From the NCBI GenBank assembly GCA_035772405.1, contig JAYKKM010000029.1, positions 267,501 through 331,500 on the forward strand: a DNA stretch of 64,000 nt. Reading direction: 5' to 3'. This DNA is from Chrysogorgia sp. JL179-B06. Taxonomy: Eukaryota; Cnidaria; Anthozoa; Scleralcyonacea; Chrysogorgiidae. Positions within the stretch are counted from its first letter, which is position 1. Every line of letters begins with the position of its first letter. The translations under genes were made by a program, and so were the position numbers. Below, in pieces: positions 15,259-62,125 of this stretch. Below the pieces are notes generated by a model. It did not search any database. It was not told where the DNA came from and worked only from the letters and a program-made list of their open reading frames with translations.

Positions 15259-15274
15259 AATCTTGAAGTAAATA

Positions 15275-15285
15275 CGGGGTCACCA
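15275..15285 (-). promoter_or_regulatory. Primer binding site, tRNA-Trp type
   Basis: Minus-strand TGGTGACCCCG begins one base inside the 5' LTR and is complementary to the 3' end of tRNA-Trp, the primer reported for CsRn1-group elements. Confidence 0.75.
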
Positions 15286-24753: not shown

Positions 24754-24779
24754 TCCGTTGGTCTCACCTAGTTCACGTC

Positions 24780-26168: not shown

Positions 26169-26172
26169 TAAC

Positions 26173-26409
26173 TTACGTTGATTTGAATGGATCTGTCGGT
26201 ATCCACTTTTTTGATTGCGCCCATTTTACTAGCAACGTTCCTGCACCAACAGCTGCAGCAAGTTTCACTGTACCTTTCACTGTCTCTGGTGTTCCCAATG
26301 GTTCTCCCAAAGCCTTTTTCGAAATCATACTCACTACCACAGCGCCAGTCGTGACAAGTAGCGCATCGTACAGTTCGTTCATAAGTTCTTTTCGATCGAT
26401 CGCGGACAT
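26173..26409 (-). CDS. Small two-pass membrane protein
   Basis: 78 codons. Two hydrophobic stretches (DALLVTTGAVVVSMI and GTVKLAAAVGAGTLLV) are separated by a short polar loop. The ATG is preceded by GTATAT. It lies between two other small membrane proteins in one minus-strand block with very short spacers. Function unknown. Confidence 0.65.
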   Translation of the reverse strand: MSAIDRKELMNELYDALLVTTGAVVVSMISKKALGEPLGTPETVKGTVKLAAAVGAGTLLVKWAQSKKWIPTDPFKST

Positions 26410-26432
26410 ATATACATTGTCGTGTGTTTTGT

Positions 26433-26780
26433 TTAAGAATCAAATGTGTCTAACGCTGGACGACGAGTTTTGTGGTTCTCTGACACACTAGCTGGTGCGG
26501 CACTCACAGGTTCTAATCGTGTCTCTTTTTCACTACTAATTGTGTACCATAGCGAAGCACCAGCAATGATAACACCAAGTGTCCCAACAATATAACCATA
26601 GCTCCACTCACTACCCTGTTCTTCGTTGACTATCATTTCACGCATTTTCTTTTCTTTCGCAGCTTTCGATATCTCAGCCAACTTTTTACCAGCAGCAACA
26701 CGCTTTGGGTCCTTTACCTTAACACTTTTCATATCAGCTGTGATCTTAGCGTCAACAGCCGTCTGTGAGTCTTCAACCAT
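26433..26780 (-). CDS. Single-pass membrane protein with basic KDPKRVAAGKKLAE motif
   Basis: 115 codons. A basic segment KDPKRVAAGKKLAEISKAAK precedes one membrane span (GYIVGTLGVIIAGASLWYTI). A motif of the kind DPKRVxAGKKLAE is familiar to me from cnidarian Polinton accessory proteins. It is first in the leftward block and starts next to a divergent promoter region. Possible DNA- or capsid-binding cytoplasmic tail; function unknown. Confidence 0.7.
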   Translation of the reverse strand: MVEDSQTAVDAKITADMKSVKVKDPKRVAAGKKLAEISKAAKEKKMREMIVNEEQGSEWSYGYIVGTLGVIIAGASLWYTISSEKETRLEPVSAAPASVSENHKTRRPALDTFDS

Positions 26781-26911
26781 CTAATACACTATCGCGTGTT
26801 ATCTTACTCACAGTTGACCTCACAGGTGCCTCACAGATGACCTCACAGGTGTCTCACAGTTCCAGACCAAAACGCACTAAAAATTAGGATTTTTTCTGGG
26901 AGTATAACATA
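26781..26911. promoter_or_regulatory. Divergent promoter region with CTCACAG direct repeats
   Basis: This 131-bp spacer separates the leftward block from the rightward gene at 26912. It holds repeated CTCACAG / TGACCTCACAGGTG units at about 26810-26860. Their repetition exactly between divergent starts suggests a regulatory site. Confidence 0.5.
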
Positions 26912-27682
26912 ATGACTCAAGTCCAAGACATCGCAGAAGAGATGACTCAAGACCAAGCCCGCCAAGAAGAGGAGATCGACGCAATGCGGAGAATGTCCTT
27001 TGTCGATGCGTCTACCCCACAAGGCGCCTCTGGACCCGACGTCTTAAAAGGGTACTCGCAAGTCTTCAAGTTGTGCGACCCCGGTTGTAAAAACGAAGAG
27101 GTGTCAAGACGATTTAGTACTCAGATTCTCTACACAAAGTTCGCTCATGATGCTTGGGTTGGACTTGACGAAGTTAGAGCCAACAGAATGGTTAGCGCAC
27201 TATCCAAGATGATCCCTGTGTGGTGCTACCCACCATTCAGACGTCTTACGCTAGCGAGTGACCACTACTTGAGCAACCCTTGCGAGTCCACCGCTACACT
27301 ACTCGGTAACTACCTCGAAGTGTTCTTGGCGACCCTTCTATGGAAACCATGCTCAACCAAAGCCAAAGCGTGGCTACACCTCGCCGCAAACTGTGACGTT
27401 AACGTTTGTAGGGTGGGGTGTAATGAAATACTGAGTGCGGGCGATATCGAGGACCACGTGTTCTCAAGCCCCCACCAGCATTTTTCGCGTGACATTGGGG
27501 AGTACGAGTGCTACCCATGCGGTGTGTCCACCAATAGCCTAACGTGTCGCTCAAGACATGAGAGCTCGAAGACTCATCTTGAAAACTTAGAGCTTCAGCG
27601 GATATTTAACAACGAACAACAGTTGCCGCGAGAGGGGAGAGCATTTCTCTGGAGGTATAGTAACCATGAAGAAAGTCGGTAG
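26912..27682 (+). CDS. Unknown protein with a matrin/U1-type C2H2 finger
   Basis: 256 codons. The N terminus is acidic and Gln-rich. The middle has no recognised motif. Near the C terminus ECYPCGVSTNSLTCRSRHESSKTH has the C-x2-C...H-x5-H spacing of U1/matrin-type zinc fingers, which bind nucleic acid. It overlaps the thymidine kinase start by 17 bases, so the two are probably co-expressed. I do not recognise a family. Confidence 0.6.
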   Translation: MTQVQDIAEEMTQDQARQEEEIDAMRRMSFVDASTPQGASGPDVLKGYSQVFKLCDPGCKNEEVSRRFSTQILYTKFAHDAWVGLDEVRANRMVSALSKMIPVWCYPPFRRLTLASDHYLSNPCESTATLLGNYLEVFLATLLWKPCSTKAKAWLHLAANCDVNVCRVGCNEILSAGDIEDHVFSSPHQHFSRDIGEYECYPCGVSTNSLTCRSRHESSKTHLENLELQRIFNNEQQLPREGRAFLWRYSNHEESR

Positions 27683-28229
27683 ACTGGAAATCGTGATTGG
27701 TCCCATGTTTGCAGGAAAAACAACCGAGACTCTTCGCAGGTTAGTCACGTTAAGTAAGTCAGGGCTCAAAGTCCTCTACATGAACAACACAGGTGACACT
27801 AGGCGAACTGACCACGCGTTCTCCACACATCGTCAGACTATCGTTGTTGGATCAGACAGTTTACCTGCAAAGTTAATCACCAACCTTCCGAGTTCTTCCG
27901 AGATAGCTGACTATGACGTCATTGGCATTGATGAGGGCCACTGGTACTCTGATCTGTCAGCTATTCGTGAATACATCAAAGCTGGCATCCACGTCATTAT
28001 TTGTGGTCTCATAACAACGGAGCACTTAAAAAGACTTGGTGAGCTTGACACACTGTTCCCAGTGGCAGACGACATCACATTTCTAAAAGCGTATTGCGCC
28101 GTTTGTCGCGACACTTACGGAACAACTGTTGAAGCGCCATTCAATTGGAGATACAACCCAGGGCCATCATTCGTTGGTGGTGCTGAGCAATATCGCGCAG
28201 TGTGCAGACGTCATCATCCTTCCACATAA
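27666..28229 (+). CDS. tk: Type II thymidine kinase
   Basis: 187 codons. The enzyme phosphorylates thymidine for dTTP supply. The P-loop GPMFAGKTTE lies at residues 12-21, the catalytic-base region IDEGHWYSD near 88-96, and the first zinc pair in YCAVCRDTYG. The nucleoside-binding C-terminal segment FVGGAEQYRAVCRRHH also supplies the second zinc pair. All key elements of the TK1-like family are present at a compact, virus-like length. It is intronless and overlaps the preceding gene. The only related role in this element is DNA replication, so it likely supports dNTP supply in non-dividing cells. Origin (host or large DNA virus) needs a tree. Confidence 0.93.
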   Translation: MKKVGRLEIVIGPMFAGKTTETLRRLVTLSKSGLKVLYMNNTGDTRRTDHAFSTHRQTIVVGSDSLPAKLITNLPSSSEIADYDVIGIDEGHWYSDLSAIREYIKAGIHVIICGLITTEHLKRLGELDTLFPVADDITFLKAYCAVCRDTYGTTVEAPFNWRYNPGPSFVGGAEQYRAVCRRHHPST

Positions 28230-28475
28230 AATTAGGGGTGTTCTCGGATACCCCACTTTTTTAAATTTAGACATTGGTCACACGAAGCGTCCAATGTCTC
28301 CCGTAGAAACATTTTTTCACACAGTGGTCAGAAGGTTTGCGAAGTAAATAGAGAAAGTTTCGCAGATATTTTTTTACTGAGTTAAAAACGTCTTTAAAAA
28401 ATGCTAGAGCAGTTGTCGCTTCAAACGTCGTCTCAACAACGAGAACGAGTGCTAATTCGACTTATTACTCGCTGT
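28230..28475. terminator. Convergent spacer with possible 3' end hairpin
   Basis: The thymidine kinase (+) and BRO-N gene (-) converge here. Just after the kinase stop, GGGGTGTTCTCGGATACCCC followed by ACTTTTTT forms a short stem and T-run. The rest is AT-rich without a gene. Confidence 0.35.
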
Positions 28476-29243
28476 CTAAAAAGTCTCTTTACAATAGCGT
28501 CTCTCATGGTTACTCAACGCTGATTTATTTTTAAATTTACGAAGGCAGTGAGAGCACTGAAACCCAACGTCAAAGAAATATTTTATTACCGCGGTAATAG
28601 CGTCGTCGTATGAGTCGCACAAGAGTGTTAGATAACCAGCGGATTTATATCTGAGCAACAGAGACTCCTGCTCTTTGGACGTCTTGCCTGTGCCACCTGG
28701 ATTCTTGAACTCGATCACAAGCCCACTATGCTGTCGGTTTGCATTGGCAATAATCAAGTCAGGCGTTCCACGTTGATAACCTTTTTTCCACGAATTTATT
28801 CTCTTCGCAGAAGTGTCTTGATTCTCGCCAAGCCCGGCTATCAAAATAGCTTCTGGATAGTATTTCCTAAGAAAGCCAACAACTTTCGTATGAAGGTCGA
28901 ACTCAGTGATCATTTTAAACTGATTGTGTTTGAGACCGACGTCAGCCACAGTCTTTCTAACGCTTGGTAAGACCTCTGAGTGCACCCACCTTCCGAAGTG
29001 TTTCGCGCGCTCCATTTTACTCGAGAACGTTAGTGAGTAGACCCCAAGTTCATTGATAAACGAGGCCTGCTCTATATTCATTTTGCAATCAGGTTCGACG
29101 TGGTCATTGACTGCATCTTTTGGTCGAGCGTAACCTAGAGCGCTTGCGACTTCTCTTGCTTTGAACCATGTTTCACCGTTGTGATTAACCGTTGTGATTT
29201 GGTGACCATCGAAGTCGAATAGTTGAGGCGCTATGGAAGTCAT
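28476..29243 (-). CDS. BRO-N / PD-(D/E)xK nuclease / zinc-finger fusion
   Basis: 255 codons from the ATG at 29243. Residues 1-110 match a BRO-N DNA-binding domain (WFKAREVASALGYARPKDAV, then FINELGVYSLTFSSKMERAK and WVHSEVLPSVRKT). The middle resembles a VRR-NUC-type nuclease, with GTPDLIIANANRQHSGLVIE leading into EFKNPGG (Asp and Glu-x-Lys). The C terminus is a C2H2-like finger (FQCSHCLRKFKNKSALSNHE). BRO genes are typical of large insect and algal DNA viruses and phages. The fusion suggests a sequence-directed nuclease acting in recombination, host DNA degradation or defence. Catalytic residues appear intact. Confidence 0.82.
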   Translation of the reverse strand: MTSIAPQLFDFDGHQITTVNHNGETWFKAREVASALGYARPKDAVNDHVEPDCKMNIEQASFINELGVYSLTFSSKMERAKHFGRWVHSEVLPSVRKTVADVGLKHNQFKMITEFDLHTKVVGFLRKYYPEAILIAGLGENQDTSAKRINSWKKGYQRGTPDLIIANANRQHSGLVIEFKNPGGTGKTSKEQESLLLRYKSAGYLTLLCDSYDDAITAVIKYFFDVGFQCSHCLRKFKNKSALSNHERRYCKETF

Positions 29244-29271
29244 CACTATATTATAGTCTCCCACAAAAAAA

Positions 29272-29412
29272 CTATTCGACGTGGGTGTTGGGTTTTTTAT
29301 AGATCTGGTTTGTCGCGTACCAATGCATCAGGTGTGTTTTATTAGCCCTCAGTTTTCTACGTCGTCTGAAAAAGTTTCTAATGCTACGAGCTAGTTTTCT
29401 AAGCCAACCCAT
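29272..29412 (-). CDS. 46-residue basic amphipathic protein
   Basis: A short open frame starting MGWLRKLARSIRNFFRRRRK and ending NTHVE. The N-terminal half alternates hydrophobic and Arg/Lys residues and would form a basic amphipathic helix; the N-terminal Met-Gly could be lipidated. It lies eight bases after the stop of the upstream gene in a tightly packed minus-strand run, which argues that it is real. Small basic or membrane-lytic virion proteins (adenovirus pX or pVI types) are the functional analogy, by inference only. Confidence 0.55.
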   Translation of the reverse strand: MGWLRKLARSIRNFFRRRRKLRANKTHLMHWYATNQIYKKPNTHVE

Positions 29413-29420
29413 CACATAAC

Positions 29421-29630
29421 TTAGGTCACGTCTCCTACAAGTCCCACAGTGTCTGACTCTGCAGGTAGCGTAATAGGTTTGCCGTAAGTCTTTTTAGACC
29501 TCATACCAATTTCAGCGTGGAGCTCGAGAGTAACGTCACCGCGACCAAATGATCCACCAGCTTTGAACATGTGATCAGTCGTTTTATTTATCTTATACAC
29601 TTCATGAGGTCTCGAAATACATGCTCCCAT
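29421..29630 (-). CDS. Small protein with myristoylation-type N terminus
   Basis: 69 codons starting MGACISRPHEVYKINK. Met-Gly followed by Ser at position 6 and an adjacent Cys fits an N-myristoylation plus palmitoylation signal. No other motif. Its start directly abuts the stop of the fibre-like gene and its stop lies 8 bases before the 46-residue gene. Likely membrane-targeted; function unknown. Confidence 0.6.
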   Translation of the reverse strand: MGACISRPHEVYKINKTTDHMFKAGGSFGRGDVTLELHAEIGMRSKKTYGKPITLPAESDTVGLVGDVT

Positions 29631-30581
29631 TTACTTTACACCATATTCCTTCATCATTTCTCCACCCATGATTATGATGTCTCGGTTCGCCATGTAACCA
29701 CTCACAATTTTCACACCGTAGAATTCTATCAACGATGGGTGCGCATAAGGTGCGAGTGGTATTCTTGGTCGATGTATTCCAAAAATTGTTCCATAGGGTG
29801 CGCCTATCTTTTTCATATTTGCTATGAAGTCTGAGTCGGTTGACTTAACGTTGTTGACTCTGACATGTGAATTGCTCATTTGCCAGTGTATCGATATCAT
29901 ATGCATTTTTGTGAGGTCGACACCACTCGGAATAGTGCATACTTTCTCCATCGCTGGGATGCTACCACCATACGCGAGCTTGTTGGTCACACCAGTCTTG
30001 TACCCTATGAACTTATCCCAACTACCATCGTCGTTTGATATAATTGTCTCCCAATTTGATCCAGCGGTTCTCATTGGTAACCTCACCACAACAAAAATGG
30101 AGAGATCACACCATTGCATACTTGGACAATTAAAATGGAGACCTGACTCAAGTGGGATTGGTGTTAACACGGGTGACAGAAAACTTTGACTCACACCGCT
30201 GATGCCAACAATAGGACCATAAGCCGGGTTGTTTTGCACTAATTTACTTGTTTCACCAATGGTTTTCACTTTGTTTGAACCATTGGTGTGAAACTCCACA
30301 TTTTTCAAGGCGTGTGTGCTAACGTTGAAGTCGAGCACAAGATTGTAGGACTGACTCTTGAGGAAACCTGACAGCAATTGCTCTAGAGTTCTTTTATTCG
30401 CGGCGTCTGAGTCATCGACTGGATCTGCTACGTTTTTTATTGCTGAGCCTTGCATGTCTATTATTCCAGACATCCTTCCACCAGTCGCGCTTAATTTAGG
30501 ATCTTCGTCCAGATGCCTTTTCGTTCTCTTTAGTATTTTATCGTGAGGGTCGTCAGACTCATACCCATAGTTTAGACTCAT
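29631..30581 (-). CDS. Fibre- or spike-like virion protein
   Basis: 316 codons. The N terminus MSLNYGYESD is followed by a basic stretch and then MSGIIDMQGSAIKNVADPVD with DSDAANKRTLEQL. This collar pattern (I-x-N-V-A-D-P, D-A-x-N-K-x-x-L) recurs in trimeric phage and viral fibre proteins. The C-terminal two thirds are beta-rich, possibly a receptor-binding lectin-like head. The MSLNYGY peptide recurs at the start of the gene at 32801, suggesting a shared capsid-docking tail comparable to the N-terminal peptide of adenovirus fibre. The spacer to the upstream gene is only two bases. Confidence 0.65.
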   Translation of the reverse strand: MSLNYGYESDDPHDKILKRTKRHLDEDPKLSATGGRMSGIIDMQGSAIKNVADPVDDSDAANKRTLEQLLSGFLKSQSYNLVLDFNVSTHALKNVEFHTNGSNKVKTIGETSKLVQNNPAYGPIVGISGVSQSFLSPVLTPIPLESGLHFNCPSMQWCDLSIFVVVRLPMRTAGSNWETIISNDDGSWDKFIGYKTGVTNKLAYGGSIPAMEKVCTIPSGVDLTKMHMISIHWQMSNSHVRVNNVKSTDSDFIANMKKIGAPYGTIFGIHRPRIPLAPYAHPSLIEFYGVKIVSGYMANRDIIIMGGEMMKEYGVK

Positions 30582-30583
30582 TA

Positions 30584-32074
30584 CTACTTCAAGGTGTATT
30601 TGGTTAGCAGATAGCCAGAGACTGCTGAGAACCCCAAGATTATCACCAGCGTTGCCGTGGTGTCTGACTCGTTTGTGGTAGTGACCACTGTTTTTTTCAC
30701 AGGAGGTGGTGTCACATTTTCTTGGTAAACTTTTTTAGCCACAGTCGTTGGTGCCACCACACTTTCTTGGTGAGCTTTTTTCTTCACAATCGTTGGTGCT
30801 ACTACTAAGTGAGTCACCACATTTTCTTGGTGGACTTTTTTAGCCGTAATTGTTGGTGTTGTTGCGTTCAAGCTGGTGTTCACTCCAAATCTCATGGACT
30901 CTGTGGCAATCTTTAATAAGTTGTTGTACCCAGCGATTTTATTCTTGAGTATCACTAGGTTACTTGGCATTAACCATGTACTTGGCGACACTGCAAGATT
31001 TTGGACAACGTTGGTGTCTCTAATCGATTTATTCATGTTGAGAATCCATGTCGACACGTCATACTGTACAACACTGTCAGAAAACAACTTGCGGAATTCT
31101 TGTTGGGTTTCTAAACTTCCTGCAGAGCCACCAACGACTGATACACGTGTTCTCGCTTGCGCACCAAGTGTGGAGTACACAAAGGCTTCTATGCTTTGAT
31201 TTAGATATTGCAGTCCAATGTTGGTGAAGCCGTCTGAGAGTCGCGCGACGTATCGTTTGTAATCGTTCTGAACGTCGTTGAGTGTGAAGACTCTGGATTC
31301 ACCTGTTGTGCCATCGCTCAGGACTTTATTCTGGTAGTAATGCTTTTTGGGGATCTTGGAAATCTTACCATATAATTCAGAGGCGTTGAATTCTCTACTT
31401 ATTGATTTCATTGTCTCACCACCCTCCATTCTTCTAAGAAGTCTTCTAATGGTGAAGTACAAATGAAACCTCATCACACTTGTGACCACGGGGTGAACTT
31501 CTTGTGACACTGATAAATGTTGCAATGACACCCCACAACAGAAACTCGCACAATACGTCGCGAACACAACACGGTAGTAAGATTCGTTGTCATCCCACTC
31601 TGATTTTGTCTTTGACGTGGTGACTCGCAAGGTTGGTAGCTTTGACATGAAGTAGCTACTCTGGTTAACAAAAACTTTAAAGTTATTCACTGGATAACTT
31701 AACACGTTTTCTGTTGGATAGCCATCCCAAAGCCCCCAGTGGTTTTTATGACCTTTTGGCAGTGGTTGGATAGTTCCACCACCTTGCCATATTATTGGGA
31801 ACTTACTATTGTGTAGCCACCTCCACATGCTTTTATCATTTTTGAAGGTTGTGCTGGTTATGTCTGTGCTGAGGATGTCGTTGTTTCTGAAATACACATC
31901 GACACTCATGATCTTACCATCTTGCAAAATATTTGGATAGAACTCGAATTTGCTTAAAGTAGCGTGGGGGTACTTTTTGATGAGGTCTGCCTTTGCGTCG
32001 TGTGCAGCCTTTGATGCGTTAGCCATCGCGAGTTTGTAGTACTTTCCATAGTAGTCGTGAAGGGCTTTCTGCAT
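30584..32074 (-). CDS. C-terminally anchored Polinton structural-type protein
   Basis: 496 codons from the ATG at 32074; a longer frame would need GTG. The N-terminal region (LAMANASKAAHDAK, FKNDKSMWRWLH, IQPLPKGHKNHWG, VVFATYCASFCCGVSLQ) looks like a family I recall from other cnidarian Polintons. The C-terminal part has a Thr/Lys-rich stalk with three KKVHQENVV-like units and ends in one membrane span (ATLVIILGFSAVSGYLL). Type II tail-anchored topology is likely. It is divergently arranged with the 32119 gene across about 44 bases. Function unknown; virion or membrane role by context. Confidence 0.65.
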   Translation of the reverse strand: MQKALHDYYGKYYKLAMANASKAAHDAKADLIKKYPHATLSKFEFYPNILQDGKIMSVDVYFRNNDILSTDITSTTFKNDKSMWRWLHNSKFPIIWQGGGTIQPLPKGHKNHWGLWDGYPTENVLSYPVNNFKVFVNQSSYFMSKLPTLRVTTSKTKSEWDDNESYYRVVFATYCASFCCGVSLQHLSVSQEVHPVVTSVMRFHLYFTIRRLLRRMEGGETMKSISREFNASELYGKISKIPKKHYYQNKVLSDGTTGESRVFTLNDVQNDYKRYVARLSDGFTNIGLQYLNQSIEAFVYSTLGAQARTRVSVVGGSAGSLETQQEFRKLFSDSVVQYDVSTWILNMNKSIRDTNVVQNLAVSPSTWLMPSNLVILKNKIAGYNNLLKIATESMRFGVNTSLNATTPTITAKKVHQENVVTHLVVAPTIVKKKAHQESVVAPTTVAKKVYQENVTPPPVKKTVVTTTNESDTTATLVIILGFSAVSGYLLTKYTLK

Positions 32075-32118
32075 ATATAATATACCATATGTTACACATA
32101 ACACATGCTACATTATAT
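32075..32118. promoter_or_regulatory. Minimal divergent promoter between two structural genes
   Basis: Only 44 bases separate opposed ATGs. Both ATGs are directly preceded by TATA-like TTATAT runs (TATTATATATG on each strand). Very short leaders are implied. Confidence 0.5.
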
Positions 32119-32781
32119 ATGGTCAGGGTTGTAGTATTGATTAGAGGTCCAACGGAAACTGTGGATCTACCAGAGGCACTTTTGACGTTTGGCTCAGATC
32201 CTCACTTACTAGTGAAAAAAGCGACCATCTTTTGGGACTACGTTAATGTGGAGACCGGTGTGAATGATGAAATAAGTTACAACAGCAACAAACACGTTTT
32301 TGGGTCTGGGTACCACACTTTTAAAATGATTGCCGACGAGTTGAAAGGATTAGGGGCTATCGAGCTAGTGGCTAACAAACACAATTCAAAGTGCGCGATA
32401 AGAACTGACCAACAATTAGAGCTGTTTAAATTTGGAGAACTCTTAGGGTTCAACGATAACACAACGGTGAGTAGTAGTGGTTTGGTCAGCCCTAATGTTG
32501 TGGACGTTAACAAAGGGTTGAAGTACGTACAAGTGGGTTGTAGTATTGTGAACAGACCTGAGAATATTGTTAATGGTAGCAAAAGCGAGGTTATCGTTGA
32601 GCTACCATTGACCACCACCCAACCACTGAAGAGCTCTGTTCAACAATTTTTCAACATTGAGTCGAAGGTGTCGATAAACAAAGGCGCTTTTACACAGCTG
32701 GTGTTTAATGTGACTGACCAAGATGGTAGTGGTGTCAACGTTGGTGACATATTGTTGGACTTGTATGCGACGCTTGAGTAG
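32119..32781 (+). CDS. Jelly-roll-like minor capsid/penton candidate, paralogue 1
   Basis: 220 codons from the ATG at 32119; an in-frame ATG lies at 32089. It shares with the next gene LVKKATIFWDYVNV near the N terminus, NKGLKYVQVGC in the middle, ESKVSINKGAFTQLVF and a C-terminal DILLDLYATL. The sequence is beta-rich with no catalytic motif. Neighbouring virion genes suggest a penton or other minor capsid protein. It lacks the MSLNYGY head of its paralogue. Confidence 0.6.
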   Translation: MVRVVVLIRGPTETVDLPEALLTFGSDPHLLVKKATIFWDYVNVETGVNDEISYNSNKHVFGSGYHTFKMIADELKGLGAIELVANKHNSKCAIRTDQQLELFKFGELLGFNDNTTVSSSGLVSPNVVDVNKGLKYVQVGCSIVNRPENIVNGSKSEVIVELPLTTTQPLKSSVQQFFNIESKVSINKGAFTQLVFNVTDQDGSGVNVGDILLDLYATLE

Positions 32782-32800
32782 CTAAACGTATGCTAAAGTA

Positions 32801-33589
32801 ATGAGTCTAAACTACGGGTATGACTCTGGTGGTTACACTGAGAAGCGACGTGTAGACGACGGTCCTCAAAAGTTGACGGTACTCGTTGAAGGTGTGGAGA
32901 AAGTTGTAACTTTTGACTACAGTGTAGTAGCCACACACGATAACCCACATATTATAGTTAAGACAGCCACTGTGTTTTGGAACTACAACAATGTGGTGGG
33001 TGATGATATTCGATTCTTACGTGTTAGATCAGGAACACCGTATACAGGACTCGCGACAACTCGATTGAGTGGGGGTCACTACGACTTCGACGCGTTGGTT
33101 AGAGCTCTACGACACGCGCTCAGGGGGGTTAATGTAGACTTCGTGGTGGAGAAGCTGATGGCCATAGGTAAAAGTAGGGTCAAAGTTCGGCCTTTGAGGG
33201 GGAGCGCCTACGCCTTAGTAGAACTTAGGCTAGGTGGTATCGGGCTTTTGCTCGGTTTCGCGAAGGACGCAGGAATTTCGTTAGACGCTAAGTGGCATGA
33301 CAGCCCAAACAAGATTGACATGAACAGAGGTCTAAAGTATGTAGAGGTCTCGTGCGACGCTGTTGAGACGGAGAGCAATGTGGGCACTGATGGGAAGCGT
33401 AGTAATGTGATCACAACGTTGCCAATACCCACCGAGCAGTCTCTTGATGGAGGGATACAACGCTACGCATACGTTGACTCCAAGGTGAAAATTAAAAAAG
33501 GTATTTACTCAAGTATGACGTTTCGTGTCAAACCAAACAATGGTGACGCTGATGTTGGCGCGGTGCTATTGGAACTGTATATTGTGTGA
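32801..33589 (+). CDS. Jelly-roll-like minor capsid/penton candidate, paralogue 2 with docking peptide
   Basis: 262 codons starting MSLNYGYDSGGYTEKRRVDD. After the N-terminal tail it parallels the preceding gene: IVKTATVFWNYNNV, GHYDFDALVRAL, NRGLKYVEVSC, DSKVKIKKGIYSSMTF and VGAVLLELYIV. The first seven residues equal those of the fibre-like protein on the other strand. It lies 19 bases after paralogue 1 and its last codons overlap the start context of the integrase. Tandem duplication plus acquisition of the tail is the simplest history. Confidence 0.6.
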   Translation: MSLNYGYDSGGYTEKRRVDDGPQKLTVLVEGVEKVVTFDYSVVATHDNPHIIVKTATVFWNYNNVVGDDIRFLRVRSGTPYTGLATTRLSGGHYDFDALVRALRHALRGVNVDFVVEKLMAIGKSRVKVRPLRGSAYALVELRLGGIGLLLGFAKDAGISLDAKWHDSPNKIDMNRGLKYVEVSCDAVETESNVGTDGKRSNVITTLPIPTEQSLDGGIQRYAYVDSKVKIKKGIYSSMTFRVKPNNGDADVGAVLLELYIV

Positions 33590-33594
33590 ATTAT

Positions 33595-34698
33595 ATGGAA
33601 CTCGGTGTGGAGACAGAGCAGGGGTTGAGAGACATTTACTACAATCCTAAGACGGGGTTCAGTGGTGCAGAGAGATTGTATCAAAGTGCATTGGGGGACG
33701 GATTGAAAGTAACTAGAAAAACAGTGAAAGAATGGTTGACAGCGCAGGACACCTACACTAGGTACAAACCTATTGTGAGGAGACATAAGTTCCGCGCGAC
33801 TTTTGTTGGATTTCTTGGTGAAGAGCTCCAAATGGACTTAGTGGACATGAGTAAATACTCAAAACAGAATGGTGGTTATTATTGGATATTGACAGGCATT
33901 GAAATATTGAGTAGATATGCTTTTGGCATTGCAGTTTATAGAAAAGACACTAAGAACATGACTAAGGCTGTTGGAAAATTGTTGGTTGACTTTAAAGATC
34001 GGTTTGGGGTCGCACCTAAGTTAGCGCAATTTGACGATGGACTTGAATTCTACAATGTTGGTGTGAAAAGTTTGTTGGAAAAACACGGTGTTGAATATTT
34101 CAGCACTAAGAGCGATAAAAAGGCTGCTGTTGTCGAGCGTTTTAATAGAAGTCTGAAGAGCATTATGTGGAAGTACTTTTACACTCGTGGGACGTACAAA
34201 TGGGTTGACGTTTTGGATCAGTTTGTAAGCAATTACAATAGCAGTGTGAATCGCAGTATTATGATGAAGCCAAAGGATGTTGATAAGTCAAACGAAGGCG
34301 AAGTTTGGACCACTTTGTTTGGTCACCAATTTGCAGACACCCCATTGCCAAAGTTTAGAGTTGGTGAGTCAGTGAGAATTAGTAAATACAAGAGCGTGTT
34401 CACAAAAGGTTACGAAGCCAACTTCACTGAGGAGCTGTTTAAAGTGGTGAAAGTTATTCGTGGTGATCCAAATGTGTACGAAATTGAGGACGTGAGCGGT
34501 GAACAGATTATTGGTAAATTTTACGAACAGGAATTATCGCTAGTCAATAAGAAACATGGCGACGATGTGTACAGAGTTGAAAAGGTGTTGAAAAGAAAGA
34601 AAGTCGGAGGGAAGAAGATGGCGCTGGTCAAGTGGTTAGGTTATGAGAGCAAACATAATTCGTGGATACCAGAAAGCGATATTCAAAATGTGAGTTAA
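33595..34698 (+). CDS. int: Retroviral-type integrase with chromodomain
   Basis: 367 codons from the ATG at 33595 (a GTG nine bases earlier is in frame). The rve core has catalytic Asp in ELQMDLVDMSK, Asp in LAQFDDGLEF and Glu in AAVVERFNRSLK. A C-terminal chromodomain reads VYRVEKVLKRKK, then ALVKWLGYESKHNSWIPE. It inserts the element, producing the 6-bp duplication seen at the ends; the chromodomain may target chromatin. Related to the transposon protein of the F54H12.3 type. Fully intact. A degenerate copy of its last codons lies downstream at 35668-35703. Confidence 0.95.
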   Translation: MELGVETEQGLRDIYYNPKTGFSGAERLYQSALGDGLKVTRKTVKEWLTAQDTYTRYKPIVRRHKFRATFVGFLGEELQMDLVDMSKYSKQNGGYYWILTGIEILSRYAFGIAVYRKDTKNMTKAVGKLLVDFKDRFGVAPKLAQFDDGLEFYNVGVKSLLEKHGVEYFSTKSDKKAAVVERFNRSLKSIMWKYFYTRGTYKWVDVLDQFVSNYNSSVNRSIMMKPKDVDKSNEGEVWTTLFGHQFADTPLPKFRVGESVRISKYKSVFTKGYEANFTEELFKVVKVIRGDPNVYEIEDVSGEQIIGKFYEQELSLVNKKHGDDVYRVEKVLKRKKVGGKKMALVKWLGYESKHNSWIPESDIQNVS

Positions 34699-34704
34699 TG
34701 TAAT

Positions 34705-35655
34705 ATGGCTGAAAGTGGCTTCGACAACCTTGAGATGGGTAGCTCTAACGAATACAAAGATGTCGCCGACGACAAACTAAAGTATAGTCTTGAAAAAGCC
34801 ACTAAAGATAGCGAGCTAGCTTGGGACGACCCAAACGTTGCAGTCGGCGAGAGAGTTAGACTAACTAAAGTGAGGAGTGGGCTGGCTCGCGAACATGGTA
34901 GAAGGGAGCGCCAACGCGTGGAGGAGGCCTTTAGCAATATTGAGACGCGGATTAATGACAACGCAAAAGACTACGAAGACGTTGCGAGGAGTGCGTCATT
35001 GTTAGACACCACACGCGCGGAGTACGTCGACATACCTGGACTAACACCAATCGAGAACCGTGAGTTGAATAGCGCACTCAATCCAAGCGAGAGTGTGACG
35101 TCTGAGTCAAGAATAGGTGATACTGGTACATTGCAAACACGAGTAGACTATTTTCGAGAAGCGATAGACAAAGCGGGCGAGAGAATGGCAGAGCTTGGTA
35201 AAAAAGATCTCGCGACTGTGGGGGGTGAAGAGCATATTAATCTAGCTGAAAGAGTGATTGGACTCATACAGGCTAGAGACATGATTATTGAACAGCGACA
35301 AATAGAGGGGGTTAGAGCGCGACAAGAGATTGATATTGACAGATTGCAGAAGTTCAAGAAGTGGGCTAGAGAAAATATGGTTGGGATGAGTGCTTTAGCG
35401 ATTTCAGTAGCTGCAATTGTGACGACTGTTATTATCGCTGGGAGGTCTAACGTTATGAAAGGCGCTATAGTCACGAGGTCATTCGCACAGGCTGTTAAAA
35501 ACGCGATAATGAAGATGGGTCCATGGGCTGTTGGGTTGGCTAATTTAGTTTACGACGCGCTGGTGGCAGGCGCAAAGGGTTTAGCTTGGTTAGCTCAAAA
35601 TCTATGGGTGTTTGCGGTGACATTCGCGTGGCTTGCGTACAATTATCTAAACTAG
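34705..35655 (+). CDS. Coiled-coil, C-terminal multi-pass membrane protein, copy 1
   Basis: 316 codons starting MAESGFDNLEMGSSNEY. A charged coiled-coil region carries LNPSESVTSESRIGDTGTLQ and RQEIDIDRLQKFKKWA. It is followed by a hydrophobic C-terminal third with about three spans (MSALAISVAAIVTTVIIAG, MGPWAVGLANLVYDALVAGA, LAQNLWVFAVTFAWLAYNY). The C-terminal half is nearly repeated in the next gene. The family is familiar from cnidarian Polintons; a capsid-internal, membrane-active role is plausible but unproved. Confidence 0.7.
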   Translation: MAESGFDNLEMGSSNEYKDVADDKLKYSLEKATKDSELAWDDPNVAVGERVRLTKVRSGLAREHGRRERQRVEEAFSNIETRINDNAKDYEDVARSASLLDTTRAEYVDIPGLTPIENRELNSALNPSESVTSESRIGDTGTLQTRVDYFREAIDKAGERMAELGKKDLATVGGEEHINLAERVIGLIQARDMIIEQRQIEGVRARQEIDIDRLQKFKKWARENMVGMSALAISVAAIVTTVIIAGRSNVMKGAIVTRSFAQAVKNAIMKMGPWAVGLANLVYDALVAGAKGLAWLAQNLWVFAVTFAWLAYNYLN

Positions 35656-35714
35656 AGAGAAAATGTGATTCGTGGGAGTCAGAGAGTGGTATTCAAAATG
35701 TGAGCTAATGTAAT
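35656..35714 (+). pseudogene. Fossil of the integrase 3' end between duplicated genes
   Basis: The spacer contains ATTCGTGGGAGTCAGAGAGT then GGTATTCAAAATGTGAGCTA, which aligns with the last codons and stop of the integrase (ATTCGTGGATACC...ATTCAAAATGTGAGTTA). The following TGTAATATGGCTGAA matches the start of copy 1. The duplication unit therefore began inside the integrase gene. Confidence 0.85.
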
Positions 35715-37154
35715 ATGGCTGAAGGTGGGGGAGGTTTTGGCGAGATTCAGATGAAGGACTTCGATAGACTTGATAGGTACACCGATGATCAATTAGATGT
35801 TGAACTTGAGAGCACCACCAAAGCTTACAATTTACTCGACGATAGGTACACCAGTGGTGACATGCCAGATATTGTGCGCGTCGAGTACGAAAAATTGTAT
35901 GGGAGAGTGGCTAGACTACAGGGTGAGCAAGAGAGGAGGTTTCTAGAAAAAGAGACGTCATTTATTGACACTGATGATGGTAAGACGGTGACAATAAGGG
36001 GGACTAACACAGAAGTCCCAACAGTAGAGTTTGTCGAACAGGAACCATATGGTGACGTCAATGACGTAAGTTTCAGTATAGCTTTTGAAGAGGAGGAGGA
36101 AATTAAGAAAAGACTGGGTGAGCTAAAATCACTCAACGAAGAGGTAATAAAAAACGAAGTAAAAAGAATCAAGCTGCTAAATACGAAAATAAACAAATTG
36201 AGTGGAAAAACACTTGGCCAGGACGATGCGTCAAGGGAGATAGTCAACAGGTCGTGGGTTACGGACTCAGAGGCTATTCTTTTCAAACCAATAGGCACGC
36301 ATGGTAAGTATGGAGGACCCAGGCTAATTCTAAAACCTAAAGGAGACGATTTGATCTACAGTAAAGATAACAATAGTAAAAGGGCTATTAAGCAGTTTAA
36401 AGAGTTAGTTAAACAAATCCCCAATAGCGCAGAAACAACAGCTGTCACAACAGAAGTGATCCCAGACGACGGCTTCTCAGTGATTGAAACAAGAGTGGGT
36501 CACGACGACATATCTGAGCTATCATCAAACGAAAACCGTGTGCTAGGTGGTGTGCTCAACCCAAGCGATGGTGTGTTGCGTGAGTCAAGAATAGGTGACA
36601 CTGGCGCGCTGCAAGTGCAGGCAGACCACTTTAAAGAAACGTTAGGTAAGACGAGAGGGAGATTGGCAGAGCTTAATAGAAAAGCTGACCAAACTGGTCT
36701 CACGCCTGACGAAGAGCAAGAGTACGCTGGTTTGCTTAAAAGAGTGAGAGGACTTGAGAAAGCCATAGACATAACCCTAGGACAGCGCGAGCTTGAAGAA
36801 GCTAGAGAGCGACAAGAAGTCGACATTGACAGATTTCAGAAATTTAAGGAATGGGCTAAAGAAAATATGGTTGGGTTGAGCGCTGTAGCAATTTCAGTAG
36901 CTGGAATTATAACAACAATTATTATCGCTGGGAGGTCTGCTGTTATGAAAGGCGCTATGGCCACGAGGTCATTTGCGCAGGCTGTTAAGAACGCGATAAC
37001 GAAGATGGGCCCGTGGGCTGTTGGATTGGCTAATTTAGTCTACAATATGTTGACGTTGGGTGCGAAGGGTCTCGCATGGTTGGCTCAAAATCTGTGGGTA
37101 CTCGCGGTGGTACTTGCGTGGTTTGCTTACGATTATTACAAGCTAAAACGGTAG
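35715..37154 (+). CDS. Coiled-coil, C-terminal multi-pass membrane protein, copy 2
   Basis: 479 codons starting MAEGGGGFGEIQMKDF. The C-terminal 200 residues parallel copy 1 (LNPSDGVLRESRIGDTGALQ, RQEVDIDRFQKFKEWAKEN, LSAVAISVAGIITTIIIAG, KMGPWAVGLANLVY, LAQNLWVLAVVLAWFAYDYY). The N-terminal part is longer and different, with acidic coiled coil (EEEEEIKKRLGELKSLN). Copy 2 is probably the ancestral-length form because it keeps the full N-terminal half. Location just upstream of the capsid gene supports a virion role. Confidence 0.7.
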   Translation: MAEGGGGFGEIQMKDFDRLDRYTDDQLDVELESTTKAYNLLDDRYTSGDMPDIVRVEYEKLYGRVARLQGEQERRFLEKETSFIDTDDGKTVTIRGTNTEVPTVEFVEQEPYGDVNDVSFSIAFEEEEEIKKRLGELKSLNEEVIKNEVKRIKLLNTKINKLSGKTLGQDDASREIVNRSWVTDSEAILFKPIGTHGKYGGPRLILKPKGDDLIYSKDNNSKRAIKQFKELVKQIPNSAETTAVTTEVIPDDGFSVIETRVGHDDISELSSNENRVLGGVLNPSDGVLRESRIGDTGALQVQADHFKETLGKTRGRLAELNRKADQTGLTPDEEQEYAGLLKRVRGLEKAIDITLGQRELEEARERQEVDIDRFQKFKEWAKENMVGLSAVAISVAGIITTIIIAGRSAVMKGAMATRSFAQAVKNAITKMGPWAVGLANLVYNMLTLGAKGLAWLAQNLWVLAVVLAWFAYDYYKLKR

Positions 37155-37177
37155 CGATAAAACATACGTAAAGGTAT

Positions 37178-38416
37178 ATGAACGCCACGTCAGCAGAGTT
37201 GAGTCCCGGTTTTAGACGAGCGACCATGGGTGGCATAAAAGGGGTGAGAACGCAACACGTAATCACGTTGAACCCTAATAAAGTCAGTCCTGGTGAGGAA
37301 CTTTACATTGATATACCGAAGCTCAAGGTTAGCAGCTGTTTGGTGCCTGGGTCGTTGGGTCTAGTGTTCGACTTTAAGAATGCAAACGTCAAAAGCTGGT
37401 TCTTGAACAATGTTAGTAAGTTGTTGGTTGAGAAACTTGTTGTGAGACTAGCTGGGGAGACTGTGTACGACAACAATGGGGAAAATTACACTGGTGTCTA
37501 TCGCGACCTTTGGGAAAGTGTTACTGCGCGAGACCAAATGATTGACTATGGTATTGGTGGTGAGAACTTGAGAAAGCTAGTTTCTAAGGACGACAGTGGT
37601 GCGACAAGTGGGAACGTCGCTAAAGTTAGTGACGCGTTGATGTTTGGTGTGATTGGAACGAAACAGCGGATTAAGCTTGGCAAGATTATGAATGACCATG
37701 GGTTGTACGCTCCTTTTAGCATGAACAACAACTTGCAGTATGTGATCACACTTCCGAAGGCCACAGACATCATGGTGGCGCAATCCGGTAGCGCTGTGGG
37801 TGGGTACACTCTGGAGAACCTCGAGCTTGAGTATGAGACGATTGATAACCAGGAGCTCGCTGACGAAATAGCGTCGGGCTACGCAAGTGGTCGTAGTTTG
37901 TCGTATGAGCACGTTACGTTGATGAAAACCACCGAATGGGACAAAGGCACGACCATTGTGAACGAAAACATTAATCTGCCAAGAAAAAGCATGAAGGCGA
38001 TTGTGTTGCTATTCACGAATAAGGTGCGAACAGACAGTGAGGAGTTTCTTTACCCAAATATTGAGAATATTAGAGTCACAATCGAAGGCGTGCCAAATAG
38101 TGTGTACTCACAAGGCATCCCAAAGTCGAAGTTCTATGCAGAAGCGAAACGACTGTTTGGGTTGGGTGAAGAACACGCTCAGTTCATGACCATACAGAAG
38201 TTCTACAAAGATGGCTTTGCGTTGGTCATCGACTTGAGGAGCGTTCAAGACAATTACAACGTCGCCACTGGCAAGAAAATTGTGAACACACAATCTGGCG
38301 TGCTTCTTGAGATCACTAAAAAAGCGACGACTGCGAATGTTATGTGCAGGGTGTTTGTGATGAGTGACGGACTGGTCAACTTCATGAACAATGGGTTGCA
38401 GTCAATCCAGTATTAA
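37178..38416 (+). CDS. Major capsid protein candidate (double jelly-roll type)
   Basis: 412 codons. Beta-rich, no catalytic motif. Runs I recall as conserved in cnidarian Polinton relatives include TQHVITLNPNKVSPGEELYI, SCLVPGSLGLVFDF, GRSLSYEHVTLMKT, INLPRKSMKAIVLLF and NIENIRVTIEGVPNSVYSQG. Its size fits minimal double jelly-roll capsid proteins, and it lies immediately upstream of the packaging ATPase, the usual Polinton order. Assembly into pseudo-hexameric capsomers is inferred from family context. The ATG is preceded by GGTAT. Structure prediction would settle the fold. Confidence 0.68.
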   Translation: MNATSAELSPGFRRATMGGIKGVRTQHVITLNPNKVSPGEELYIDIPKLKVSSCLVPGSLGLVFDFKNANVKSWFLNNVSKLLVEKLVVRLAGETVYDNNGENYTGVYRDLWESVTARDQMIDYGIGGENLRKLVSKDDSGATSGNVAKVSDALMFGVIGTKQRIKLGKIMNDHGLYAPFSMNNNLQYVITLPKATDIMVAQSGSAVGGYTLENLELEYETIDNQELADEIASGYASGRSLSYEHVTLMKTTEWDKGTTIVNENINLPRKSMKAIVLLFTNKVRTDSEEFLYPNIENIRVTIEGVPNSVYSQGIPKSKFYAEAKRLFGLGEEHAQFMTIQKFYKDGFALVIDLRSVQDNYNVATGKKIVNTQSGVLLEITKKATTANVMCRVFVMSDGLVNFMNNGLQSIQY

Positions 38417-38431
38417 ATCAAACGTGAGTTA

Positions 38432-39031
38432 ATGGAGACTCCGTTTAATATGCTAATTGTTGGTATGACAGCTTGTGGTAAGACGCATTATTTGCTGGAA
38501 ACATTGGAATCTGAGTACTTTAATAAATTTGACTACATTGTGTTGATTTGCCCTACTTTTGAGTGGAACAAAGCGTACCAAGATTGGAGATACATACGCG
38601 ACCCTGACGTGTTAGCGATAGACTGCACACAGGACAGTGTCGACGCTGTTCTCAAGTGTGTAACAAATGTTTTTAAAGGCACTAACACTCTGATTGTGTT
38701 GGATGACTGTGCGAGTTCTCAAGACGTCAAGAATAGGACTAGTCAATTGGTCAACTTAGCTTTTAGCGCGCGACATTTTATGCTGAGCGTTATTGTCATC
38801 ACACAACAACTGACGTCGATCGCAAAACCGTACAGAGAAAATATTAGTAAGCTCGTTTGCTTCTACTGCCCAAGTAGGAGCGATATGAAGGTCGTTATCG
38901 ACGATTACCTTGGAAACATTAGCAGAGAAAAATCGTCGGCGATTGTGACCACATTAAAAAATAATAAGTACGCTAGACTCGAAATCTCACTACGCTATCC
39001 ATACAGTCACGAAGTTGTTATTCCGCAATAA
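38432..39031 (+). CDS. A32-like genome packaging ATPase
   Basis: 199 codons. The Walker A motif GMTACGKTHYLLE lies near residues 11-23, Walker B is TLIVLDDCASS and a sensor-like SVIVITQQLTS follows. This is the compact FtsK/HerA-type ATPase that pumps DNA into capsids in Polintons and large DNA viruses. Start context GTGAGTTAATG. It follows the capsid gene by 15 bases and precedes the last small gene by 3 bases. Intact. Confidence 0.93.
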   Translation: METPFNMLIVGMTACGKTHYLLETLESEYFNKFDYIVLICPTFEWNKAYQDWRYIRDPDVLAIDCTQDSVDAVLKCVTNVFKGTNTLIVLDDCASSQDVKNRTSQLVNLAFSARHFMLSVIVITQQLTSIAKPYRENISKLVCFYCPSRSDMKVVIDDYLGNISREKSSAIVTTLKNNKYARLEISLRYPYSHEVVIPQ

Positions 39032-39034
39032 AAT

Positions 39035-39547
39035 ATGGGTATAAGTAATAACGCGATGGTGAAACGCAAAAGTGGGGAAAATCCTACGATTGAGGAACTA
39101 GTTGAGGAGACTGATGGTACTTCGACTGTGGAAGACAATATTGACGTTAGGAGATCCGAACTTATTAGACTGTCTGGTGATGGTGTGGTAAGCCAGTCCG
39201 AAGCGTACATTAAAAAAGCGTCCGCAAAAGTTATTGATAAGATATGGCGCCAATACGAGTTGAAGAGAATGGAAATCGCGAACGCTTTTCTCACTGACTT
39301 GCTAATCAGCAAATTCGCCAGCTTACTAGATGGGTTGAACGCTATAGAGAATCCTGACGAACTAAATGACGAGTTGCAGAAAGACCCGCTATTAAAGAAA
39401 GACGTTGAGAGCATTGTCGCGATTGTGACGCCGTATGTGCCTTTCTTGGGCTTGTTGTCGGGAGGAATCACAACGTCGAAATATGTGTACGATCACCATT
39501 TTAGGAGTGAGGTGGTAGACACTGAGAGTAGTGAACAAACAGACTAA
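39035..39547 (+). CDS. Unknown last gene of the rightward block
   Basis: 170 codons starting MGISNNAMVKRKSGEN. The N terminus is polar; the C-terminal part has one moderately hydrophobic stretch (VAIVTPYVPFLGLLSGGI). It starts 3 bases after the ATPase stop. Its last residues SEQTD are the same as the end of the polymerase at the other end of the element, because both stop regions lie in the decayed inner edge of the terminal repeats. No family recognised. Confidence 0.6.
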   Translation: MGISNNAMVKRKSGENPTIEELVEETDGTSTVEDNIDVRRSELIRLSGDGVVSQSEAYIKKASAKVIDKIWRQYELKRMEIANAFLTDLLISKFASLLDGLNAIENPDELNDELQKDPLLKKDVESIVAIVTPYVPFLGLLSGGITTSKYVYDHHFRSEVVDTESSEQTD

Positions 39548-40788: not shown

Positions 40789-42404
40789 AAATATTGTCTT
40801 TCCGTTGGGTGCCTACTAAAATGACCCTAGTCCGCTGGTGAAATGGTTAATTAGTCCTACGTTAATAACGCACTCTCAATACGAAATGAAAACATGATGA
40901 TATTTTAATTAATTTATGTTTTTGGCGTTCTCTCGTTGATTACATTTACATATAAACAAAACATTAGATTTGTGAGTCTTACATTTGGTAGTTTTAAATT
41001 AATTTAAACTGATAAGTGCTAAACGTTAATGATTCTACTTGTCCGTGTTAAATCGAACACGTCTAAAATATAATTTCTGCCGACTAAAATAGAACTTCTG
41101 CCGACTGAAACTCGTATAAAGATTTTTTGGGGGGTGTCACACCCGGTTATATGAGTAAATGCGTAAGCGAGTAAAGTACCCAAAACTCGTCTTTAAAATC
41201 AAAGGACATGGGCCATGGCTTCAAGATCTATTCGACGTTTACTTTGTGATTCAATGCTTTTATGTCCATTAAACCGATATAATTTCGTAAAAGATATGTT
41301 TCGTATACCTTGCCTTTTATTTTTATAAAAGTTTTGACACACGAAGACCTTCAATCGAAAAGATATTAGAAAGAATAGCATTGCCGTGGCAGGCGTTATG
41401 CATTGGGAGGGTTGCGGGCAGGCTAGCCTGCGTGCGACGCCTGATTTTGCTTTGCATTAGTTCCTAGGCATGCTGATGCGCTCTGGTATAAAAGCGAAAC
41501 GGTCCAAAATATGAAATTTTATAAACTTCTGAGCTGAAAAATCACCGCTCAGAATGCAGGAAATGCCATTTACGGGAATCTATATTTCAAAATTTTCCGG
41601 GGTGCATGCCCCCGGACCCTCCCATTTGGGACCAGCTTCGCCACTGAACGCAACGTAAGGTGAAATACGATAACCAGATATAACCTGAACGCGATAACCA
41701 GACAGCGCGCCGAAGTGTGCAAAGGTCCTGGCATGGTCAAGAGATGAATTAATAAGGCGCGTTTTATTGTCAAGTTTGTGGTGGAATATTTCACACTCTT
41801 TCTTTGAGAATGAGTCTTTGTAACTACTGCTATAGTGCTGCTGCCAAGGTAAGATATTATTTTTGTTCGTTGGCGTTGTACTCGTGTAGAAAATAGAATA
41901 ATTTATACAACTTCGTCATCTCCTAATATGAATCAACTGAAACCACATCATTTTATACCTTTATAAGCTTCCTGCAGAATAAGCTGTGTGTTTTCCTAAA
42001 ATGCATGCCATAACTCACCAAAGAATAGATATATACATGTAATAATAACTTTGTAAGATTTGCGGCATTTGCCTATTAGGATAAATAGTCTGGAACCCGT
42101 TATTTTTATGTTTATGTGACTGTAATGTATTAGTCAAATCAAAGACATTTTTTTCAAAAATGATGCTAATTCCGGGCAGGTTGAAATGCAGGTGCAAATG
42201 CCCCCGGCGGAAACATGAAAGCAATAACAGCAATTTTCAGTGTTTTCAAACATCAAATTATTATATAAATACTATTTACAAGGCACTGGTGTTAACCCTT
42301 TTACCTACTGTAGGCTGTACACTTAAGGCTTAAACTCCTCCATGATCGGTTGAGAACCGCCAGGGGGGGTGAGGACAGAGTCTGCTTTCGCAGACTACAC
42401 TTTA
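40789..42404. other. Sequence between MITE and right inverted arm
   Basis: Noncoding as far as I can see. Contains fragments related to the CAGTGGCG MITE family (about 41598-41650) and a small hairpin AGTCTGC/GCAGACT at 42379-42396 next to the right arm. Probably the other part of the element split by the Polinton. Confidence 0.4.
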
Positions 42405-42644
42405 CGTTGAGTCGTTTTACTTTACGTTGAGTCATTTCACTTTACGTTGAGTCGTTTCACAACACGTTGATTGACGTGTGACGGTGTCATATGGCGAAAC
42501 ATATAATAGTTGAATCAGTTCACATGTAGTTGAGTGATTCCAAAACTGGTGAAATGATTTGTCAGCTGGTTAAACGAGTCGTCAACTATAGTTTAATGAT
42601 TTAACAACTAGACGAATGATTTCACAAGTAGTTGAATGAATCCA
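42405..42644 (-). repeat. Right inverted arm with three 20-bp units
   Basis: Reverse complement of 19331-19560 with small differences; contains about three CTTTACGTTGAGTCGTTT units. Further degenerate GTTGAGTCATTT-like units continue to about 42880. Confidence 0.85.
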
Positions 42645-56778: not shown

Positions 56779-60380
<3,602 letters not shown>

Positions 60381-60465: not shown

Positions 60466-61080
<615 letters not shown>

Positions 61081-61324
61081 GTGTCTGTAGATATTGTACT
61101 ATTACGCTCCTTCACTTCGGTGTTGTTGAGCACTCTGCGAAGCCTGTTGGTGTAGGTGTCCTTTAGCGATAATGCAACGCCCACTACCCTTGTGGTAGTT
61201 TGAGCACTCTGGCCCTACACCGCTTCACGCTCTCTGGATGTGCGCATGACCGCTGTTTGTACCACAAGCGGTTGTCACCGGCAATCGTTTGTGTATAATT
61301 AGATCTCGTGCCCATATCTAGATC

Positions 61325-61383
61325 GTACCAAGCTACACTGATGAGCTGTGGAACAGCGAAACACGTGTCTGTAGATATTGTAC
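61325..61383 (+). ncRNA. Type I hammerhead ribozyme, copy 1
   Basis: Core CTGATGA (61338-61344); stem II GCTGT/ACAGC with GGA loop; GAAA (61358-61361); a short palindromic stem III (ACAC/GTGT); predicted cleavage after GTC at 61369. Stem I is CTACA/TGTAG plus GTAC/GTAC across an internal loop. All invariant core positions are met. Confidence 0.85.
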
Positions 61384-61608
61384 TATTACGCTCCTTCACT
61401 TCGGTGTTGTTGAGCACTCTGCGAAGCCTGTTGGTGTAGGTGTCCTTTAGCGATAATGCAACGACCACTACCCTTGTGGTAGTTTGAGCACTCTGGCCCT
61501 ACACCGCTTCACGCTCTCTGGATGTGCGCATGACCGCTGTTTGTACCACAAGCGGTTGTCACCGGCAATCGTTTGTGTATAATTAGATCTCGTGCCCATA
61601 TCTAGATC

Positions 61609-61667
61609 GTACCAAGCTACACTGATGAGCTGTGGAACAGCGAAACACGTGTCTGTAGATATTGTAC
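61609..61667 (+). ncRNA. Type I hammerhead ribozyme, copy 2
   Basis: Identical fold 284 bases after copy 1, with core CTGATGA at 61622-61628 and predicted cleavage after 61653. Cleavage at both copies would free a 284-nt monomer. Confidence 0.85.
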
Positions 61668-61749
61668 TATTACGCTCCTTCACTTCGGTGTTGTTGAGCA
61701 CTCTGCGAAGCCTGTTGGTGTAGGTGTCCTTTAGCGATAACACGGGACG

Positions 61750-62125
61750 AAAAAACGGATTTGCGACAAATTTGCTTCGTAGCAAATAATTTGCAAATTT
61801 AACCAACTATATTTGCATTAATTTGCACGTTATGTGTTTATAACTTTGCACTAGAACCAAATTTGCAACAAATTTGTCTTGGAGCAAAATATGTGCAAAT
61901 TTAATAAACTAAATTTGCATTAATTTGCACGTTGTGTGTTTTTAACTTTGCACTAGAACCAAATTTGCAACAAATTTGTATATGAAGTCAAAGTTGTTGC
62001 AAATTTGGTAAACAAATTTGCAACAACTTTGCATAGGTATTTTTCAACTTTGTCGTACAAGTTTGCAACAGGTTTACAAATGGATTTGCCAATTCTAAAA
62101 TATAAAGCAAATTCATTGTTAAATT
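61750..62125. repeat. Degenerate AAATTTGC-rich tandem repeat
   Basis: Two to three imperfect units of about 106 bp containing ACCAAATTTGCAACAAATTTG and TTTGCATTAATTTGCACGTT. Non-coding. Confidence 0.75.

Follow-up and report, generated by a model that had tools for sequence, protein, structure and literature searches.

The question raised by this locus is whether a short tandem repeat in the window (by which we mean the whole 64-kb stretch of DNA that was analyzed) is the genomic copy of an element that spreads through self-cleaving, circular RNA or a local duplication in which an old ribozyme has persisted. Metazoan non-LTR retrozymes, as set out in passages of the work of Cervera and de la Pena (2020, PMC7229834), are tandem repeats of 170-400 nt that carry type I hammerhead ribozymes, have a low GC content, lack LTRs, and occur in cnidarians, molluscs, amphibians, and others. 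Part of a later review (PMC7761336) repeats this class description and contrasts it with the minimal hammerheads of Penelope-like elements (PLEs). Further traits given for the class are strong self-pairing of the monomer, conserved tertiary contacts between loops 1 and 2, many dispersed genomic copies, self-cleavage with circular RNA in tissue, and the lack of a primer binding site and a polypurine tract. Our analysis indicates that the array is very probably a genomic copy of such a non-autonomous element, and it looks like an added member of the class already described rather than a new class.

The initial annotation had described a 284-bp tandem repeat with a hammerhead at each complete unit junction, and Tandem Repeats Finder, unit comparison, and a structural descriptor search agree on this. 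The repeat is laid out as follows.

61081..61740, plus strand: retrozyme-like tandem array, 2.32 units of 284 bp (Tandem Repeats Finder, unit comparison)
61081..61364, plus strand: unit 1 (Tandem Repeats Finder, unit comparison)
61365..61648, plus strand: unit 2, with one difference from unit 1 (unit comparison)
61649..61740, plus strand: partial unit 3, 92 bp, the same as unit 1 (unit comparison)

Tandem Repeats Finder gives the array a period of 284, 2.3 copies, and 99% matches. The units lie head to tail as direct repeats, and their length falls inside the 170-400 bp range of retrozymes. Units 1 and 2 differ by a single mismatch in 284 positions (C at 61180, A at 61464), and all 92 bases of the partial third unit match unit 1. 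The GC content of the unit, 0.496, lies under the 50% limit given in the text of PMC7229834 but over the 45% limit in the legend to its figure 1, and is at the upper end of the class. When the array was compared with the 64-kb window by blastn, it returned the tandem units themselves and chance-level rows only; at a word size of 7, there was no further copy of the unit in the window, the best of the remaining rows having an E value of 0.33. No flank-to-flank repeat that could be a target-site duplication was found in the 60-70 bases at each edge, and the longest word common to the edges, GTGTC, lies inside the array. Such duplications are described in PMC7229834, in the passage cited here, as optional and as longer than 4 bp when present.

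The ribozymes at the two complete junctions are as follows.

61325..61383, plus strand: type I hammerhead ribozyme 1, predicted to cleave between 61369 and 61370 (descriptor, sub-threshold HH9)
61609..61667, plus strand: type I hammerhead ribozyme 2, predicted to cleave between 61653 and 61654 (descriptor, sub-threshold HH9, sub-threshold Hammerhead_1)

Both junctions read GTAC-CAAG-CTACA-CTGATGA-GCTGT-GGA-ACAGC-GAAACACGTGTC-TGTAG-ATATT-GTAC, and all the elements of a type I hammerhead are present: an open-ended, two-part stem I, stem II, GAAA, a short stem III, and a GTC site. Stem I is made of an inner 5 bp (CTACA/TGTAG) and an outer 4 bp (GTAC/GTAC). The CTGATGA core, which starts at 61338 in hammerhead 1 and at 61622 in hammerhead 2, is followed by a 5-bp stem II (GCTGT-GGA-ACAGC) and then GAAA, while stem III consists of two pairs and an ACGU loop within the palindrome ACACGTGT. 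Cleavage is predicted after C61369 and C61653, and the hammerheads are spaced by exactly one unit. The core, 5-bp stem II, GAAA, GTC site, and complementary two-part stem I read at both junctions in the initial annotation are thus confirmed in the sequence. The internal loop of stem I (CAAG/ATATT) and the GGA loop of stem II are also there, although tertiary contacts between loop 1 and loop 2 are not of a kind that sequence can prove.

These two sites were the only hammerheads that the descriptor search returned from the 64 kb on both strands. The chance controls show how readily such matches arise: there were no matches in 100 first-order Markov strands when stem II had at least 3 pairs and stem I at least 4; 27 in 2989 simulated strands when stems I and II each had at least 4 pairs, or about 0.02 per two-stranded window; and 150 in 2989 strands when both stems were relaxed to 3. 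Hammerheads 1 and 2 are copies of each other and so count as non-independent. The simple pattern CTGANGA-N6-30-GAAA occurs 14 times in the window against 3.6 expected, and 12 of these 14 matches lie outside the array junctions, so that the core pattern alone is weak evidence and it is the stems and the cleavage site that carry the case.

Covariance models gave a mixed answer. No Rfam model matched anywhere in the 64-kb window at its gathering threshold. Below threshold, HH9 aligned to both junctions (19.3 bits, E = 0.14, in a 1.8-kb search that returned 41 rows, mostly chance). When the search was confined to the 111 bases surrounding junction 2, a region picked because of the finding itself, Hammerhead_1 also aligned below threshold, with a score of 21.8 bits (E = 0.0021) and none of its pairs marked as non-standard. 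Rescaled to one model and the whole window, the E value would be about 3e-4. The canonical hammerhead proposed earlier therefore aligns to the type I model, but its score stays under the gathering threshold of 34 and is no clear pass.

If the ribozymes act, transcripts of the locus would cleave themselves at both GTC sites and would yield exactly one 284-nt monomer.

61370..61653, plus strand: predicted 284-nt monomer freed by two cleavages (fold z-score −4.06 linear, −4.14 circular)

Folded as a linear molecule, this monomer reaches −98.4 kcal/mol (z = −4.06), and none of 200 shuffled sequences is as stable; as a circle, it reaches −93.7 kcal/mol (z = −4.14; 0 of 100 shuffles as stable), with 68% of its bases paired. 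The hammerhead taken by itself is different: the isolated 63-nt region has a z-score of 0.18, with 101 of 200 shuffles at least as stable, and a 53-nt cut has one of −0.36 (64 of 200). In the 59-mer, the hammerhead fold has an energy of −8.4 versus −11.2 kcal/mol for the minimum-energy fold, a cost of 2.8 kcal/mol; forcing it on the circle costs 4.7 kcal/mol (−89.0 versus −93.7), and when the circle takes its predicted minimum-energy form, other pairs hide the hammerhead. In this nearest-neighbor model, which leaves tertiary contacts outside, the hammerhead is not favored, and the computed energies count against easy cleavage. The reason may be that the circle masks its own ribozyme or that tertiary contacts go unmodeled. 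A masked ribozyme in the circle has been described for plant retrozymes and viroids, whereas most metazoan circles leave the hammerhead free, some mussel circles excepted (both in passages of PMC7229834).

The form of stem III bears on how cleavage might proceed. Because it has two pairs and a palindromic ACGU loop, efficient cleavage may need two hammerheads that pair via the octamer ACACGUGU, whose self-duplex is computed at −10.3 kcal/mol. A hammerhead-to-hammerhead arrangement of this kind has been described for newt and axolotl (portions of PMC7229834 and PMC6155905). According to the first of these sources, in the portion cited, the hammerheads of amphibian satellites and axolotl have a very short helix III with a tetraloop, palindromic in HHR_Amex1, and are more efficient as dimers. 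The stem III at our locus is likewise very short, with a palindromic tetraloop at its end, which makes a dimeric hammerhead plausible here.

The tandem array, the two intact hammerhead sequences, and the strong self-pairing of the unit are direct observations. With the metazoan non-LTR retrozymes known from coral, mussel, and axolotl, the array has in common the type I hammerhead, tandem units of a few hundred base pairs, a highly self-paired monomer, and a genome that also holds Penelope-like elements, as these traits are given in the available part of PMC7229834. The likeness is one of such described features. We file the array as a probable retrozyme because most of the sequence-level features of the class are found in it, a target-site duplication being missing and the GC content borderline. 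The label given in the initial annotation is accordingly supported by the type I hammerhead, the tandem layout, the unit size, and the strong self-pairing, while activity is something that we infer.

Cleavage, circularization, reverse transcription, and insertion are carried over here by analogy with the published class. On that model, the monomer would be circularized by an RNA ligase of the host, a reverse transcriptase from another element would run round the circle more than once, and the resulting multi-round copy would give rise to a new tandem array with arbitrary ends.

The main competing explanation is that the array arose by DNA-level amplification, as a satellite or a local tandem duplication, and carries an old hammerhead while taking part in no current RNA-circle cycle. 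It would account for the lack of a target-site duplication at the array edges and of a second copy of the unit in the 64 kb, and the 2.3 tandem copies do adjoin a long simple repeat that may be slippage-prone; the nearest-neighbor energies that do not favor the hammerhead fold also point in its direction. Yet both junctions retain an intact core, stems, and cleavage site, and the strong fold of the whole unit would not be expected of an arbitrary satellite. Moreover, the hammerhead satellites of newt and salamander have themselves been reassigned to retrozymes (in a passage of PMC7229834). We consider a purely DNA-level origin unlikely.

Beyond the retrozyme reading itself, we looked for relatives elsewhere. 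The DNA pattern CTGATGAGN{7,14}CGAAACNNNNGTC had 41 matches in 33 stretches of IMG/VR viral contigs, but a stem I of at least 4 pairs beside a short stem III was found in none of the 41, the largest having 3 pairs. A more complete type I descriptor, whose output for any core is its best-paired reading, placed hammerheads in 18 of the 33 viral stretches, each with a longer stem III. The viral-contig hammerheads were rejected as relatives of the retrozyme on these stem I and stem III features. Six of the viral stretches (L033, L019, L021, L025, L032, and L005) have by the same descriptor three to five interspersed type I hammerheads each; their stem I frequently reads GGTTAA/TTAACC or nearly so, with more variation in L033, and their stem III is different. 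The pattern with ACACGTGTC had no match in the genome contig collection, and blastn of the array against plasmids gave none.

The next question is what might mobilize such a repeat. The initial annotation had noted that the array starts at an AT array about 0.9 kb past a Penelope element, and this arrangement holds.

57007..60207, plus strand: Penelope-like element, edges approximate as they merge into AT tracts (RVT_1 in the main ORF, pLTR copies, inverted copy)
60579..61080, no strand assigned: AT tract running right up to the array on its 5' side, with ATTAT as its final bases (sequence)

AT tracts lie on both sides of the Penelope-like element. Its main ORF piece matches RVT_1 (E = 1.2e-7), and the C-terminal end of that ORF matches a group I intron endonuclease model below the cut-off (E = 0.0028). 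The left end of the element (57007-57573) repeats some of its own 3' portion in inverted orientation; the alignment covers 573 positions, of which 38 are gaps and 1 is a mismatch (93% identity). In this inverted copy, a GIY-YIG match at 57174-57575 on the minus strand has 21.8 bits against a cut-off of 22.6 (E = 2.3e-4). Direct pLTR pieces start at 57571 and 60132. Near 58600 the reading frame is disrupted, and the last part of the main ORF does not read like the inverted copy. From the end of the element at about 60207, some 0.87 kb lead to the array and hold two AT tracts and a hairpin. This hairpin (60480-60573), long and near-perfect with arms of about 40 bp, lies between the AT tracts and is probably a foldback or MITE-like element; against the mir-3910 model, it scores 66.3 bits on both strands (gathering 95), as any foldback may.

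Instead of being an independent non-autonomous element, the array might derive, as a fragment or a solo pLTR, from a Penelope-like element that has a hammerhead of its own, a reading suggested by this proximity, by the tandem type I hammerheads in the PLE pLTRs of other species (in part of PMC7761336), and by the hammerhead motifs reported in all available PLE sequences (in part of PMC6155905). The unit, however, has no significant similarity to the Penelope-like element of the window (best match, E = 0.73), and 57007-60207 holds no exact CTGANGA core on either strand; when one mismatch is allowed in the core and a GAAA is required within about 50 bases of it, one strand has 8 such sites and the other 5. 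Given the motifs reported in all available PLE sequences in the cited part of PMC6155905, the missing core may mean that the copy is incomplete or decayed, or that the pattern was too strict. The minimal hammerheads of PLEs and terminons resemble the array in being type I, tandem, and associated with retroelements (passages of PMC7761336 and PMC11167929), but they lie inside coding elements and are described as lacking helix III or loop-loop contacts (same passages, and PMC7229834 in part for PLEs), unlike the array hammerhead with its short stem III and two-part stem I. A pLTR origin is thus very improbable, and of the Penelope link proposed earlier, the proximity stands, while neither an exact core in the Penelope copy nor a significant similarity of the unit to it was found. 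A viroid-like replicon with ribozymes on both strands is disfavored because the descriptor finds no hammerhead on the minus strand of the 64-kb window.

To return to the array as a retrozyme copy, its edges may be compared with what is known of Penelope enzymes. In the passages cited of PMC11167929, the purified Penelope enzyme of anole is reported to cleave AT-rich DNA, with 5'-ATT-3' as its most frequent site, and to initiate reverse transcription within an AC-rich stem-loop. At our locus, the 5' edge joins the end of the second AT tract right after ATTAT, and the 3' edge, at unit position 92, falls at the AC-richest part of the unit: the AC-richest 16-base stretches start at 94-95, and the 20- and 24-base stretches (starts at 85-91) straddle the edge, although 12-base AC-rich stretches at the edge tie with others in the unit. 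A 6-bp stem-loop is predicted at unit positions 103-119 in two or three fold windows, a neighboring window giving another structure, and the 3' edge is beside this stem-loop, not in it. Target priming predicts the AT tract at the 3' edge, whereas here it is on the 5' side only; the 3' neighbor of the array (61741) leads into a tandem repeat of about 102 bp. Because the AT tract is on the opposite side and both matches are post hoc at one locus, we regard it as doubtful that the edges record a Penelope-type insertion of circular RNA. The 5' edge was also considered as a self-cleaved RNA end and rejected, as the cleavage site lies 5 bases inside the array and not at its start. The approximately 102-bp tandem repeat just 3' of the array (61759-62052) is rich in ATTTGCA.

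The window holds other mobile elements. The region 19505-42460 is flanked by 20-bp tandem repeats (19505-20027 and 42398-42460) that are reverse complements of each other, and we take it to be Polinton/Maverick-like, its ORFs (21457-39547) resembling PolB, integrase, ATPase, and capsid proteins. Pfam gave one of these ORFs a weak Endonuclease_7 match only, below the cut-off. The ORF at 27591-28229 is presumably thymidine kinase-like, and we take the ORFs at 11343-15279 to be Ty3/Gypsy gag-pol-like. A tRNA scan of the 64-kb window returned none.

Animal retrozymes, described recently, give rise to abundant RNA circles through their ribozymes, and the cited portions of the papers considered here leave it unsettled which enzyme reinserts these elements. 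The array offers a usable test locus: its units are nearly identical, both ribozymes are intact, and its edges can be read next to an AT tract and a Penelope-like element. If its edges do record a Penelope-type insertion and other copies share both of them, this would point to the enzyme that mobilizes animal retrozymes.
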